A DNA stretch of 64,000 nucleotides, taken from assembly GCF_030296055.1 (NCBI RefSeq), contig NZ_AP027370.1, positions 1,476,501 through 1,540,500 of the forward strand. Direction: 5' to 3'. Under the pieces are notes generated by a model, which was not told where the DNA came from, searched no databases, and saw only the letters and a list, made by a program, of their open reading frames with translations. This DNA is from Hydrogenimonas cancrithermarum. GTDB taxonomy: Bacteria > Campylobacterota > Campylobacteria > Campylobacterales > Hydrogenimonadaceae. Below are positions 28,255-50,777 of this stretch, in pieces. The position numbers and the translations under genes are program-made. Every line of letters begins with the position of its first letter. The stretch's first letter is position 1.

Positions 28255-28498
28255 AGTGGACAGTGTGCAGTGGGTAGTGAAGCTGCTTCCAGCTTTTTTA
28301 CTATCCGTTGTGCATGGTCTCATTTCGGTTACCAGTTAAAGCGGTGCTGTGAGATATCAGGCAGTTTTTTTGCTTTCCCCAGTCAAGAAGCGTGGCGGTA
28401 TTGACTGAAGCCGCATGAGTGCGGCGGGCCTGCTGCCGAAGCGAACACGGCATCGTTTTGAGATTGAGTCGGCTCTGATGAGCGCGGCATAGCTGCGC

Positions 28499-28531
28499 GC
28501 GAGCCCTCCGCTGAGGAGAACTCAGCGTTAG
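28499..28531 (+). repeat. Hairpin repeat, copy 2 (infA-rpmJ spacer)
   Basis: Matches 23591-23623 at 29 of 33 positions. Stem CGCTGAG (28509-28515) and CTCAGCG (28521-28527), perfect, with loop GAGAA. It lies 48 bases before the rpmJ start. Confidence 0.65.
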
Positions 28532-28578
28532 CGTAGTTGTTACGGGCTTTGCCCGTGCAACGTGTAAAGGAGCTAATA

Positions 28579-38251: not shown

Positions 38252-39106
38252 ATGCAAGATTTCGAAGCCTATCTGACCACACATCTTCCCGAAGCGCCAA
38301 GCTTCCATCCGACATTCGACAGGGCATTGAAGGCGATGCTGCTTGCCGGCGGCAAACGGTTTCGTCCGCAGCTGCTGCTTGCCGTCGTCGACGCCTATAC
38401 GCCGCTGCTGCGCGAAAGCGCCTATCCTGTGGCGATGGCGCTGGAGATGTTGCATACCTATTCGCTGATTCATGACGACCTGCCGGTCATGGACGATGCC
38501 GACCTGCGACGCGGCGAGCCGACGCTTCACAAACGCTACGACGAGGTAACGGCGGTGCTGGTGGGAGACGCTCTCAATACCCATGCGTTCTACCTGATCG
38601 CCGACGCTCCACTTCACAACGACGTGAAGGTTGCGCTGGTCAAAGAGCTCGCCTACAGCGGAGGGATCGGTGGCATGGTGCTCGGTCAGGCGATCGACTG
38701 TCATTTCGAGGGCGAGAAACTGACCCCGGAACAGGTCGATTTTCTGCATGAATACAAAACGGGCCGGCTGATCGCCGCGAGTCTGAAGATGGGTGCGATC
38801 GTTGCCGGGTTGGAGGAAAAAGCACAACAGACGCTCTTCGATTTTGGCCTTGACCTCGGGCTTCTTTTCCAGATTCAGGACGATATCATCGATGCGACGC
38901 AAAGCAGCGAAGATGCCGGCAAAACGACCGGCAACGACGATGCCAAGAATAGTTACATCAACCATTTCGGCCTGCAGGGATCGCGGGAGCGTGCCGATGC
39001 GTTGGTCGCAAAAATCGAAAAGCAGATGGTTCAGTTCGATGCCCCGCTCCGCGCGAAACTCGAACCGATCCTGGACAACTATCTCAACCGACATAAAATT
39101 CAGTGA
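38252..39106 (+). CDS. ispA: Polyprenyl synthetase (farnesyl/geranylgeranyl diphosphate synthase)
   Basis: Builds C15-type isoprenoid diphosphate from IPP and allylic substrates. 284 residues. First aspartate-rich motif HDDLPVMDDADLRRG (DDx4D class, typical of IspA), LHK and GDAL segments, second motif FQIQDDIID. Product length cannot be proven from sequence. The stop codon lies at the edge of a 14-base tandem duplication. Confidence 0.92.
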   Translation: MQDFEAYLTTHLPEAPSFHPTFDRALKAMLLAGGKRFRPQLLLAVVDAYTPLLRESAYPVAMALEMLHTYSLIHDDLPVMDDADLRRGEPTLHKRYDEVTAVLVGDALNTHAFYLIADAPLHNDVKVALVKELAYSGGIGGMVLGQAIDCHFEGEKLTPEQVDFLHEYKTGRLIAASLKMGAIVAGLEEKAQQTLFDFGLDLGLLFQIQDDIIDATQSSEDAGKTTGNDDAKNSYINHFGLQGSRERADALVAKIEKQMVQFDAPLRAKLEPILDNYLNRHKIQ

Positions 39107-39173
39107 GGAGTGAGAAGTGAGGAGTGAGAAGTTTATTGCATCCTTCCCACTCCTCACTCCTTACTTCCCACTC
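39103..39173. repeat. Tandem 14-mer and long imperfect inverted repeat between ispA and tkt
   Basis: GTGAGGAGTGAGAA occurs twice in direct tandem (39103-39116, 39117-39130), overlapping the ispA stop. A complementary pyrimidine tract at 39143-39173 can pair with it as a stem of about 16 bp with a single mismatch, then, after a 5-base bulge, 10 bp more. The loop is 39132-39142. Purine/pyrimidine asymmetry is extreme. It could be a terminator, an RNA barrier or simple-sequence expansion. Confidence 0.7.
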
Positions 39174-39193
39174 AATAAAAAAGGAACTTTTTT

Positions 39194-49319: not shown

Positions 49320-49394
49320 GCCCAGATAGCTCAGTGGCAGAGCACTTCCTTGGTAAGGAAGAGGTCGGCGGTTCAATCCCGCTTCTGGGCTCCA
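49320..49394 (+). tRNA. tRNA-Thr (anticodon GGT)
   Basis: Acceptor GCCCAGA/TCTGGGC, anticodon stem TTCCT/AGGAA with loop TGGTAAG-type frame giving GGT, discriminator T, CCA encoded (49392-49394). It is 183 bases before tuf. Confidence 0.95.
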
Positions 49395-49467
49395 CGCCCA
49401 AACGCCGATAATATCGGGGTTCAAAGAGGCTACGGAGCACACAAGCACAAAATGACAAATTTTTTGG

Positions 49468-49473
49468 TATAAT
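49468..49473 (+). promoter_or_regulatory. -10 element of tuf
   Basis: A perfect TATAAT, 105 bases before the tuf start. No clear -35 hexamer; the upstream sequence is T-rich, as often in this phylum. The transcript would begin near 49480, giving a leader of about 100 bases. Confidence 0.6.
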
Positions 49474-49490
49474 ACGGCCCACAAATTGGC

Positions 49491-49551
49491 AGGGTGCCTC
49501 TGTAAACAGGCTCATAAGAGTTTTTTGCGGGAATGTTTGCAGAGGTACCCT
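49491..49551 (+). promoter_or_regulatory. 17-bp stem-loop in the tuf leader
   Basis: Left arm 49491-49507 and right arm 49535-49551 pair along all 17 positions, 15 Watson-Crick and two G-U. The 27-base loop contains a smaller hairpin CTC-ATAA-GAG (49511-49520) directly followed by six T, like a small terminator. The right arm ends 26 bases before the tuf ATG. Probably an RNA control element for EF-Tu; I know no named family that fits. Confidence 0.6.
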
Positions 49552-49577
49552 ATTTTAATTCTTTTATGGAGGACACT

Positions 49578-50777
49578 ATGGCTAAGGAAAAATTCGAACG
49601 AACCAAGCCGCACGTAAACATCGGTACTATCGGTCACGTCGACCATGGTAAAACTACACTGACAGCTGCGATCACTGCAGTTCTCGCTACCAAAGGTGAT
49701 GCAGAGCTGATGGATTACGATCAGATCGACAACGCACCGGAAGAGCGCGAGCGCGGTATTACAATCGCTACATCTCACGTTGAATATGAGACTGACAAGC
49801 GCCACTACGCACACGTCGACTGCCCGGGTCACGCCGACTACGTCAAAAACATGATTACAGGTGCTGCTCAGATGGATGGCGCGATTCTCGTCGTTTCTGC
49901 AGCGGATGGCCCGATGCCGCAAACACGCGAGCACATCCTCCTCTCTCGTCAGGTAGGCGTTCCTTACATCGTTGTATTCATGAACAAAGCGGACATGGTT
50001 GACGATGAAGAACTCCTCGAGCTGGTCGAGATGGAGATTCGTGAACTTCTGAGCGAATATGACTTCCCGGGTGACGATACTCCGGTTATCGCAGGTTCTG
50101 CCCTCAAAGCGCTTGAAGAAGCGAAAAGCGGCACACTTGGCGAGTGGAGCGAAAAGATCCTCGAGCTGATGGACGCAGTCGACGAGTACATCCCGACACC
50201 TGAGCGCGAAACTGACAAAGACTTCCTGATGCCGATCGAAGACGTCTTCTCAATTTCTGGACGTGGTACGGTTGTTACAGGTCGTATCGAGCGCGGTAAA
50301 GTGTGTGTCGGTGACACAATCGAGATCGTCGGTATCCGTGATACGCAGACTACGACTGTTACAGGCGTCGAGATGTTCCGTAAAGAGATGGATTGCGGTG
50401 AAGCGGGCGACAACTGTGGTGTTCTTCTTCGCGGTACGAAAAAAGAAGATGTCGAGCGCGGTATGGTTCTTTGTAAGCCTGGCTCAATCACGCCTCATAC
50501 ACAATTTGAAGCTGAAATCTATGTTCTTACAAAAGAGGAAGGCGGACGCCATACTCCGTTCTTCAACGGATACCGCCCGCAGTTCTATGTACGTACAACT
50601 GACGTGACAGGCGCTATTACGCTTCCTGAGGGAACCGAAATGGTTATGCCTGGCGACAACGTTAAAATCACAGCTGAACTTATCGCACCGATCGCAATGG
50701 AAGAGGGTACACGTTTCGCAATCCGCGAAGGTGGACGTACTGTCGGCGCGGGTGTTGTTTCTAAGATCATCAAGTAA
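49578..50777 (+). CDS. tuf: Translation elongation factor Tu
   Basis: Brings aminoacyl-tRNA to the ribosome as a GTP complex. 399 residues. GTPase motifs: GHVDHGKT (19-26), the switch segment [31 protein letters not shown]. Domains 2 and 3 are complete. ATG 49578 with GGAGG upstream is chosen over an earlier ATG at 49533 inside the leader hairpin. tuf sits with tRNAs and rpmG rather than after fusA. Confidence 0.98.

Follow-up and report, generated by a model that had tools for sequence, protein, structure and literature searches.

EF-Tu is an exceptionally abundant protein and, to our knowledge, the control of its level has been worked out mainly in enteric bacteria. In the DNA analysed here, a 64,000-nucleotide stretch (the window) of the 2.38 Mb genome of Hydrogenimonas cancrithermarum (Campylobacterota, Campylobacterales, Hydrogenimonadaceae), a long stem-loop had been noticed in the leader of tuf, and the question raised by this locus is whether the leader RNA takes part in the control of EF-Tu synthesis.

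The tuf locus and its leader

The tuf gene follows a tRNA cluster, Thr(TGT)-Tyr(GTA)-Gly(TCC)-Thr(GGT), whose order matches that of thrU-tyrU-glyT-thrT-tufB in E. coli MG1655. On its 3′ side lie rpmG, tRNA-Trp, secE, nusG, rplK, rplA, rplJ, rplL and rpoB, the products of which were identified as L33, SecE, NusG, L11, L1, L10, L7/L12 and RpoB. The features of the leader are as follows.

49320-49394, plus strand: tRNA-Thr(GGT), last of the upstream tRNA cluster (ARAGORN and Rfam)
49468-49473, plus strand: TATAAT box of the tuf promoter, in the context TTTTTTGGTATAAT
49488-49490, plus strand: GGC preceding the stem, invariant in 12/12 leaders and unpaired in the long stem
49491-49508, plus strand: left arm, AGGGTGCCTCTGTAAACA, of which 49491-49506 is invariant in the genus
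49497-49506, plus strand: anti-SD segment, CCTCTGTAAA, complementary to the Shine-Dalgarno (SD) region
49509-49533, plus strand: loop, 25 nt in the window and variable across the genus
49534-49551, plus strand: right arm, TGTTTGCAGAGGTACCCT, of which 49536-49551 is invariant; read as an anti-anti-SD
49563-49576, plus strand: SD region, TTTATGGAGGACAC, with the SD GGAGG at 49568-49572
49578-50777, plus strand: tuf, EF-Tu (NCBIfam TIGR00485, 771 bits, cut-off 522)

The stem-loop is real. The original prediction described 17 pairs, two of them G-U; the G-U count was correct and the pairing proved one longer, 49491-49508 being complementary to 49534-49551 over 18 consecutive pairs. RNA folding of 49491-49552 yielded −37.7 kcal/mol (z = −8.4, none of 200 shuffles being as good), and the long stem was still predicted at 55 °C. 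When the 64 kb window was scanned for stems of 14 or more pairs, with at most 3 G-U pairs and a loop of 3-60 nt, only this stem and one of 15 pairs appeared; six Markov-simulated windows contained three stems of 14 pairs and none longer. The expectation of a stem well beyond chance was borne out. The stem-loop also lies where it had been placed, with the TATAAT box upstream and the tuf SD downstream. Separately, a long imperfect inverted repeat of GAGTGAGAAGT-like units, with 34 nt arms that are 82% complementary, was seen at 39098-39176 of the window.

Judging from the promoter box, transcription of tuf would start near 49481. Transcription is unlikely to begin 3′ of the left arm, since the TATAAT box lies 13-15 nt 5′ of GGCAGGG, the beginning of the left side, in 12/12 complete leaders of the genus; the ATG lies 26-30 nt 3′ of the right arm. 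Most Hydrogenimonas tuf promoters also have a TTGAC-like motif about 10 nt 5′ of TATAAT (49450-49473 in the window), a spacing too short for a usual −35 box. A leader open reading frame was considered and rejected: an in-frame ATG at 49533 runs through the right arm into tuf, and the frame is broken in relatives by arm-to-ATG distances of 26, 28, 29 and 30 nt.

Conservation and covariation in Hydrogenimonas

Eighteen Hydrogenimonas genomes were sampled, 13 of which match the leader plus the tuf start. Twelve of these have complete leaders, and in the thirteenth (G012) the loop is interrupted by a contig break, with the left arm on one contig and the right arm at the beginning of another. In the other five genomes (G003, G006, G011, G013 and G014) no match was obtained with the leader and the first 84 nt of tuf, with a covariance model of the element (R1) or with the left-arm core when 1 mismatch was allowed; because the tuf start itself was also unmatched, an assembly gap is likely in these five.

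The segments GGCAGGGTGCCTCTGTAAA and TTTGCAGAGGTACCCT are identical in 12/12 complete leaders, which amounts to 35 invariant nucleotides, 19 on the left side and 16 in the right arm. Within the same 12 genomes 172 of the 185 four-fold sites of tuf vary (13/185 are unchanged), with pairwise four-fold differences of 36-72%. The adjoining tRNA-Thr has 2 distinct sequences among the 12 genomes, so the arms are constrained about as much as a tRNA. The exact 19 nt left side was further found on 8 contigs of GTDB r220 (3 of Hydrogenimonas sp. and 5 labelled Campylobacterales or Campylobacterota bacterium); on 7 of these the right arm and a tuf-like start follow, and the eighth (L073) ends inside the right arm.

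The loop between the arms ranges from 16 to 250 nt in the 12 leaders and reaches 309 nt in L073. The arms are nevertheless paired in the minimum-energy fold of every one of the 12 leaders, loops of about 250 nt included. One of the loops (G002) matches dispersed repeats of the genus, with matches in 7 of the 9 genomes examined and up to 11 per genome. A dispersed Hydrogenimonas repeat (28372-28563 of the window; L010 1620-1850) sits in the tuf leader loop of some relatives and leaves the arms undisturbed.

The stem extends beyond its 16 invariant pairs. Position 17 carries C-G or U-A, positions 19 and 20, where they pair, carry G-C or U-A, and position 21 carries C-G without exception. After the loops had been replaced by N, 94.1% of the cells in an alignment of 22 pairs by 10 distinct rows pair; pairing is missing from 1 row at pair 17, 4 rows at pair 18, 3 at pair 19 and 5 at pair 20. 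Compensatory changes, for which the relatives were to be searched, are present: four pairs have changed on both sides, a number not unusual in itself (85/500 shuffles), and the covariation score was 0.112 against a shuffled mean of 0.061, with 0/500 shuffles as high, a comparison in which related sequences may beat such shuffles even without structure. Structure is selected, since the upper stem covaries and the arms are paired in 12/12 folds, and sequence because 35 nt are invariant while 172/185 four-fold sites vary. Taken together, these comparisons support a leader RNA of tuf that is real, structured and selected.

Predicted pairing of the left arm with the Shine-Dalgarno region

The left arm has a second potential partner. 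In the window, 49563-49572 can pair with 49497-49506 and the CAC at 49574-49576 with the GTG at 49494-49496, A49573 being bulged. Across the genus the pattern is CCUCUGUAAA with UUUAYGGAGG, extended by GUG with CAC or with a similar triplet one or two A further on. The predicted duplexes comprise 7-10 consecutive bp and −12.0 to −19.2 kcal/mol; depending on the leader, 0-2.2% of shuffled arms did as well by energy and 0.9-20.5% by run length. Paired with 39 tuf leaders from other families, this left arm gave −2.8 to −14.9 kcal/mol, and 8 of the 12 genus leaders lie beyond all of these. Among 60 SD-bearing open reading frames picked mechanically in the window, tuf ranks second for the left-arm duplex.

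When the right arm was masked in constrained folding, the left arm was predicted to hold the SD in 11/12 leaders, with probabilities of 0.75-1.00 and only 0.00-0.12 for a free SD. In the remaining leader (G009) the SD was not closed (0.00), which counts against a switch. Mean SD closure was 0.867 for the real arms and 0.041 for left-arm shuffles (0/300 as high), or 0.164 for shuffles that kept CCTC in place (1/300 as high), long loops having been cut to 40 nt in 4 leaders for these controls. CCTC or CTCC was present in 3.1% of the plain shuffles. The reversed left arm still reached 0.685, indicating that much of the SD-closing effect comes from the CCTC-like anti-SD core. Without masking, the long stem was favoured over the masked state by 12.9-25.4 kcal/mol in 12/12 leaders, the left arm was not on the SD, and the SD was predicted to be partly free (0.27-0.79); with differences of this size spontaneous switching is not expected, and an active trigger, of which none was found, would be required. 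Two exclusive structures, a long stem or a short inner terminator, had been thought conceivable for this leader. Two such structures do remain conceivable, with the conserved alternative to the long stem being the left arm on the SD region rather than the terminator.

A possible translational switch and its rivals

The reading that we favour, as a tentative one falling somewhat short of probable, is that the tuf mRNA begins with a cis-acting RNA, specific to Hydrogenimonas, that forms a two-state translational element of the anti-SD/anti-anti-SD kind. By default the right arm would hold the left arm, the anti-SD, in the stem of 16-19 pairs and leave the tuf SD open, as folding predicts. Once the right arm was made unavailable, the left arm would move to the SD region, pairing along 7-10 consecutive bases and the GUG/YAY extension and closing the SD as in the constrained folds. 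A protein, cleavage by RNase III or another RNA are candidates for removing the right arm. The purpose would most likely be homeostasis of the EF-Tu supply; we infer how the element would be triggered, in which direction it would act and that it might be tied to the EF-Tu level. A fuller version is less secure and on balance doubtful: a major translation factor would be governed throughout the genus by a new RNA switch, with an invariant anti-SD arm parked in a 16-19 bp stem until a protein sensing EF-Tu or ribosome supply, or RNase III, removes its partner and the arm moves onto the tuf SD, perhaps so that the whole tuf-rpoB cluster is controlled from one place.

The invariance of the arms favours such a switch, since a stem needed for its shape alone would drift in sequence and a left arm with two partners would not. 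Two exclusive partners for the left arm would explain most of the letter conservation; the invariant GGCAGG, however, pairs hardly at all with the SD and is left unexplained by a switch. The switch was also framed after inspection of the sequences, and the 12 genomes share ancestry. A distinct leader RNA of such sharp conservation in Campylobacterota, missing from the 39 readable tuf leaders of other families, would suggest that control of tuf was invented more than once. With one arm and two partners, the geometry is simple enough for a direct reporter test.

Stabilisation by a 5′ stem-loop and binding of a protein are serious rivals of the switch, and both stabilisation and recognition by a protein or RNase III can coexist with it. 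The stem starts about 10 nt from the probable transcription start and might, without any switching, shield the abundant tuf operon mRNA from the 5′-to-3′ exonuclease RNase J and from conversion of its 5′ end. RNase J is encoded in the genome (676.6 bits, cut-off 400), whereas no RNase E/G scored above its cut-off, and the freely varying loop agrees with a stabiliser. In the excerpted text of PMC4843948, a 5′-UTR stem-loop at +4 to +30 of a Helicobacter pylori mRNA, in the same phylum, raises mRNA level and half-life, and an excerpt of PMC3997798 has a hairpin close to the 5′ end stabilising mRNA in B. subtilis. A barrier needs no invariant letters, however, and yet the lower stem, both G-U pairs and the unpaired GGC are all invariant. 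A stabiliser would be expected to keep its shape while its sequence drifts, as in the H. pylori stem-loop with 20 variants in 67 strains of one species (PMC4843948, same excerpt); instead, all 35 nt are unchanged in 12/12 leaders. The roughly 10 unpaired nucleotides at the 5′ end would moreover offer an exonuclease a foothold, and the complementarity to the SD would become an accident. A barrier to RNase J thus explains the selected shape and not the selected letters, and as a full account we consider it rather unlikely.

Letter-for-letter conservation of the lower stem and GGC would be accommodated by a protein site on the invariant lower stem, bound by EF-Tu itself or by a product of the cluster such as L11, L1 or L10, or by a specific RNase III site, with feedback on tuf-rpmG-tRNA-Trp-secE-nusG-rplKAJL-rpoB. 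The downstream cluster does code for L33, SecE, NusG, L11, L1, L10, L7/L12 and RpoB, RNase III is present in the genome (246.7 bits, cut-off 166.25), and the part of PMC5371410 consulted mentions tufB of E. coli as a site already known for RNase III. A regular helix of 16-19 bp, on the other hand, offers little to a sequence-specific RNA-binding protein, and the arms share with E. coli 16S, 23S and 5S rRNA only short runs, of 9 nt at most, and are not unusually complementary to them. Mimicry of rRNA was rejected on the E. coli rRNAs only, the genome's own 23S having given no match and its 16S having been recovered in pieces. Recognition of this kind is given a smaller chance than stabilisation.

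Transcription attenuation, in which the long stem or an inner CTC-ATAA-GAG stem followed by six T (49511-49526, a stem of 3-4 bp) would terminate transcription, draws on a T-rich stretch 3′ of the stem in the window (ATTTTAATTCTTTT) and on a further predicted pairing of the left arm with the loop there (−10.1 to −10.5 kcal/mol), and is very improbable: the inner element is confined to the window and absent from relatives, its fold is no better than that of shuffles (33-39/200 as good), several relatives have no continuous T run after the stem, and loops of about 100-309 nt would spoil the timing of an attenuator. A terminator scan of the window with a loop limit of 8 nt did not report the inner element. 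The inner terminator of the original prediction, lying in a loop that is unconserved (16 to 309 nt), was dropped, and attenuation was rejected as the conserved mechanism.

Distribution outside the genus

No named tuf leader of this form was known, and the database search agrees: Rfam 15 gave 10 matches in the window at gathering score, all tRNA and none for the leader. Searching the leader at E up to 10 returned chance-level matches, mostly microRNA hairpins, of at most 20.2 bits and all far below gathering. No description of such a leader was found in the literature by title and start of abstract; subscription papers fall mostly outside the coverage, so this is weak evidence of absence.

Forty tuf leaders from other families of the order were fetched, one being too short for use, and the arms were found in 0 of the 39 readable ones. 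The longest simple stem between tRNA-Thr and tuf in the 37 measurable leaders (3/40 lacked a recognised tRNA end) has 5-13 pairs, as against 16-19 in the 8 short-loop Hydrogenimonas leaders. Several outside leaders combine a promoter box with a plain leader some 35 nt long. The Hydrogenimonas line thus appears to have gained the element by insertion between the promoter and the SD. In 14 of the 40 outside leaders (L018-L020, L022-L025, L027, L028, L031, L032, L037, L044 and L056) a different hairpin occupies the same place, the palindrome AAAGTTTYGGCCRAARCTTT, 25-58 nt before the ATG.

Covariance model R1, run over 398 genomes of the order, matched 13 of the 18 genus genomes and, at E up to 1, another 56 genomes outside the genus, nearly all weakly. 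Seven of these 56 were examined and had no counterpart at tuf besides a dissimilar weak match in G162; five of the seven had no visible tuf gene. The best outside match (G211, 2.9e-6) is a different stem that does not precede tuf; the gene behind it is presumably ccoN. The G162 match (E 0.021) does lie in a tuf leader but is a different element, with a stem built from the 3′ end of tRNA-Thr. In that leader (L093) the tRNA-Thr 3′ end and the following sequence form a predicted stem of about 15 pairs, which might compete with folding or processing of the tRNA. Another strong leader hairpin of the order is a 19-pair stem at about 1500-1563 of L088, AGGGCACCCCTGAAAATCG / CGGTTTTCAGGGGTGCCCT, followed by AAGGAGG and lying before a gene that is presumably ccoN.

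Within the H. cancrithermarum genome itself, BLAST with 85 nt of the leader found the tuf site and two chance matches of 14-15 nt. The left-arm core with up to 3 mismatches occurs at 50 places, as against 33 for a reversed control pattern, and at the place with 1 mismatch no right arm was found within the 300 bases read from there.

Comparison with known systems

Leaders in which an anti-SD and an anti-anti-SD compete include translational riboswitches and the erm-type translational attenuators. They share with the Hydrogenimonas leader a single strand that has two exclusive partners, one of them the SD; it differs from them in that no ligand-binding domain or conserved leader peptide was found and in its open default.

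Within the same phylum, the stem-loop in the 5′-UTR of vacA of Helicobacter pylori likewise lies near the 5′ end of its mRNA. As given in an excerpt of PMC4843948, it is a short structure (+4 to +30) whose sequence drifts within the species and which acts on mRNA half-life. The Hydrogenimonas element differs in its invariant lower stem of 16 pairs and in its complementarity to the SD.

The gene itself is subject to control elsewhere. Brandis, Bergman and Hughes reportedly described in 2016 that tufB is autoregulated post-transcriptionally in Salmonella and E. coli, and the Salmonella system is reportedly Rho-dependent. The excerpted text of PMC10882980 states that expression of tufB in these bacteria depends on the mRNA being open around the start codon, and that of PMC6134099 that it responds to the EF-Tu level, with up-mutations at −60, −29 and +36 near the start. 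The four tRNA genes that precede tuf in the window also precede tufB, in identical order, and the tufB up-mutations (−60, −29, +36) fall in a distance range similar to that of the Hydrogenimonas element. The E. coli leader (−73 to +96), by contrast, folds otherwise and reaches into the coding part, and neither shared arms nor a sequence relation was seen; in Hydrogenimonas a promoter box follows thrT, and the element, a long regular stem with a free loop, ends 26-30 nt before the ATG. In silico, two structures could compete over the tuf start region in Hydrogenimonas, the closed form appearing in 11/12 masked leaders and never being favoured unmasked. Without any claim of homology or membership, the control of Salmonella tufB by alternative structures is the nearest functional parallel, the same kind of control acting on the same gene.
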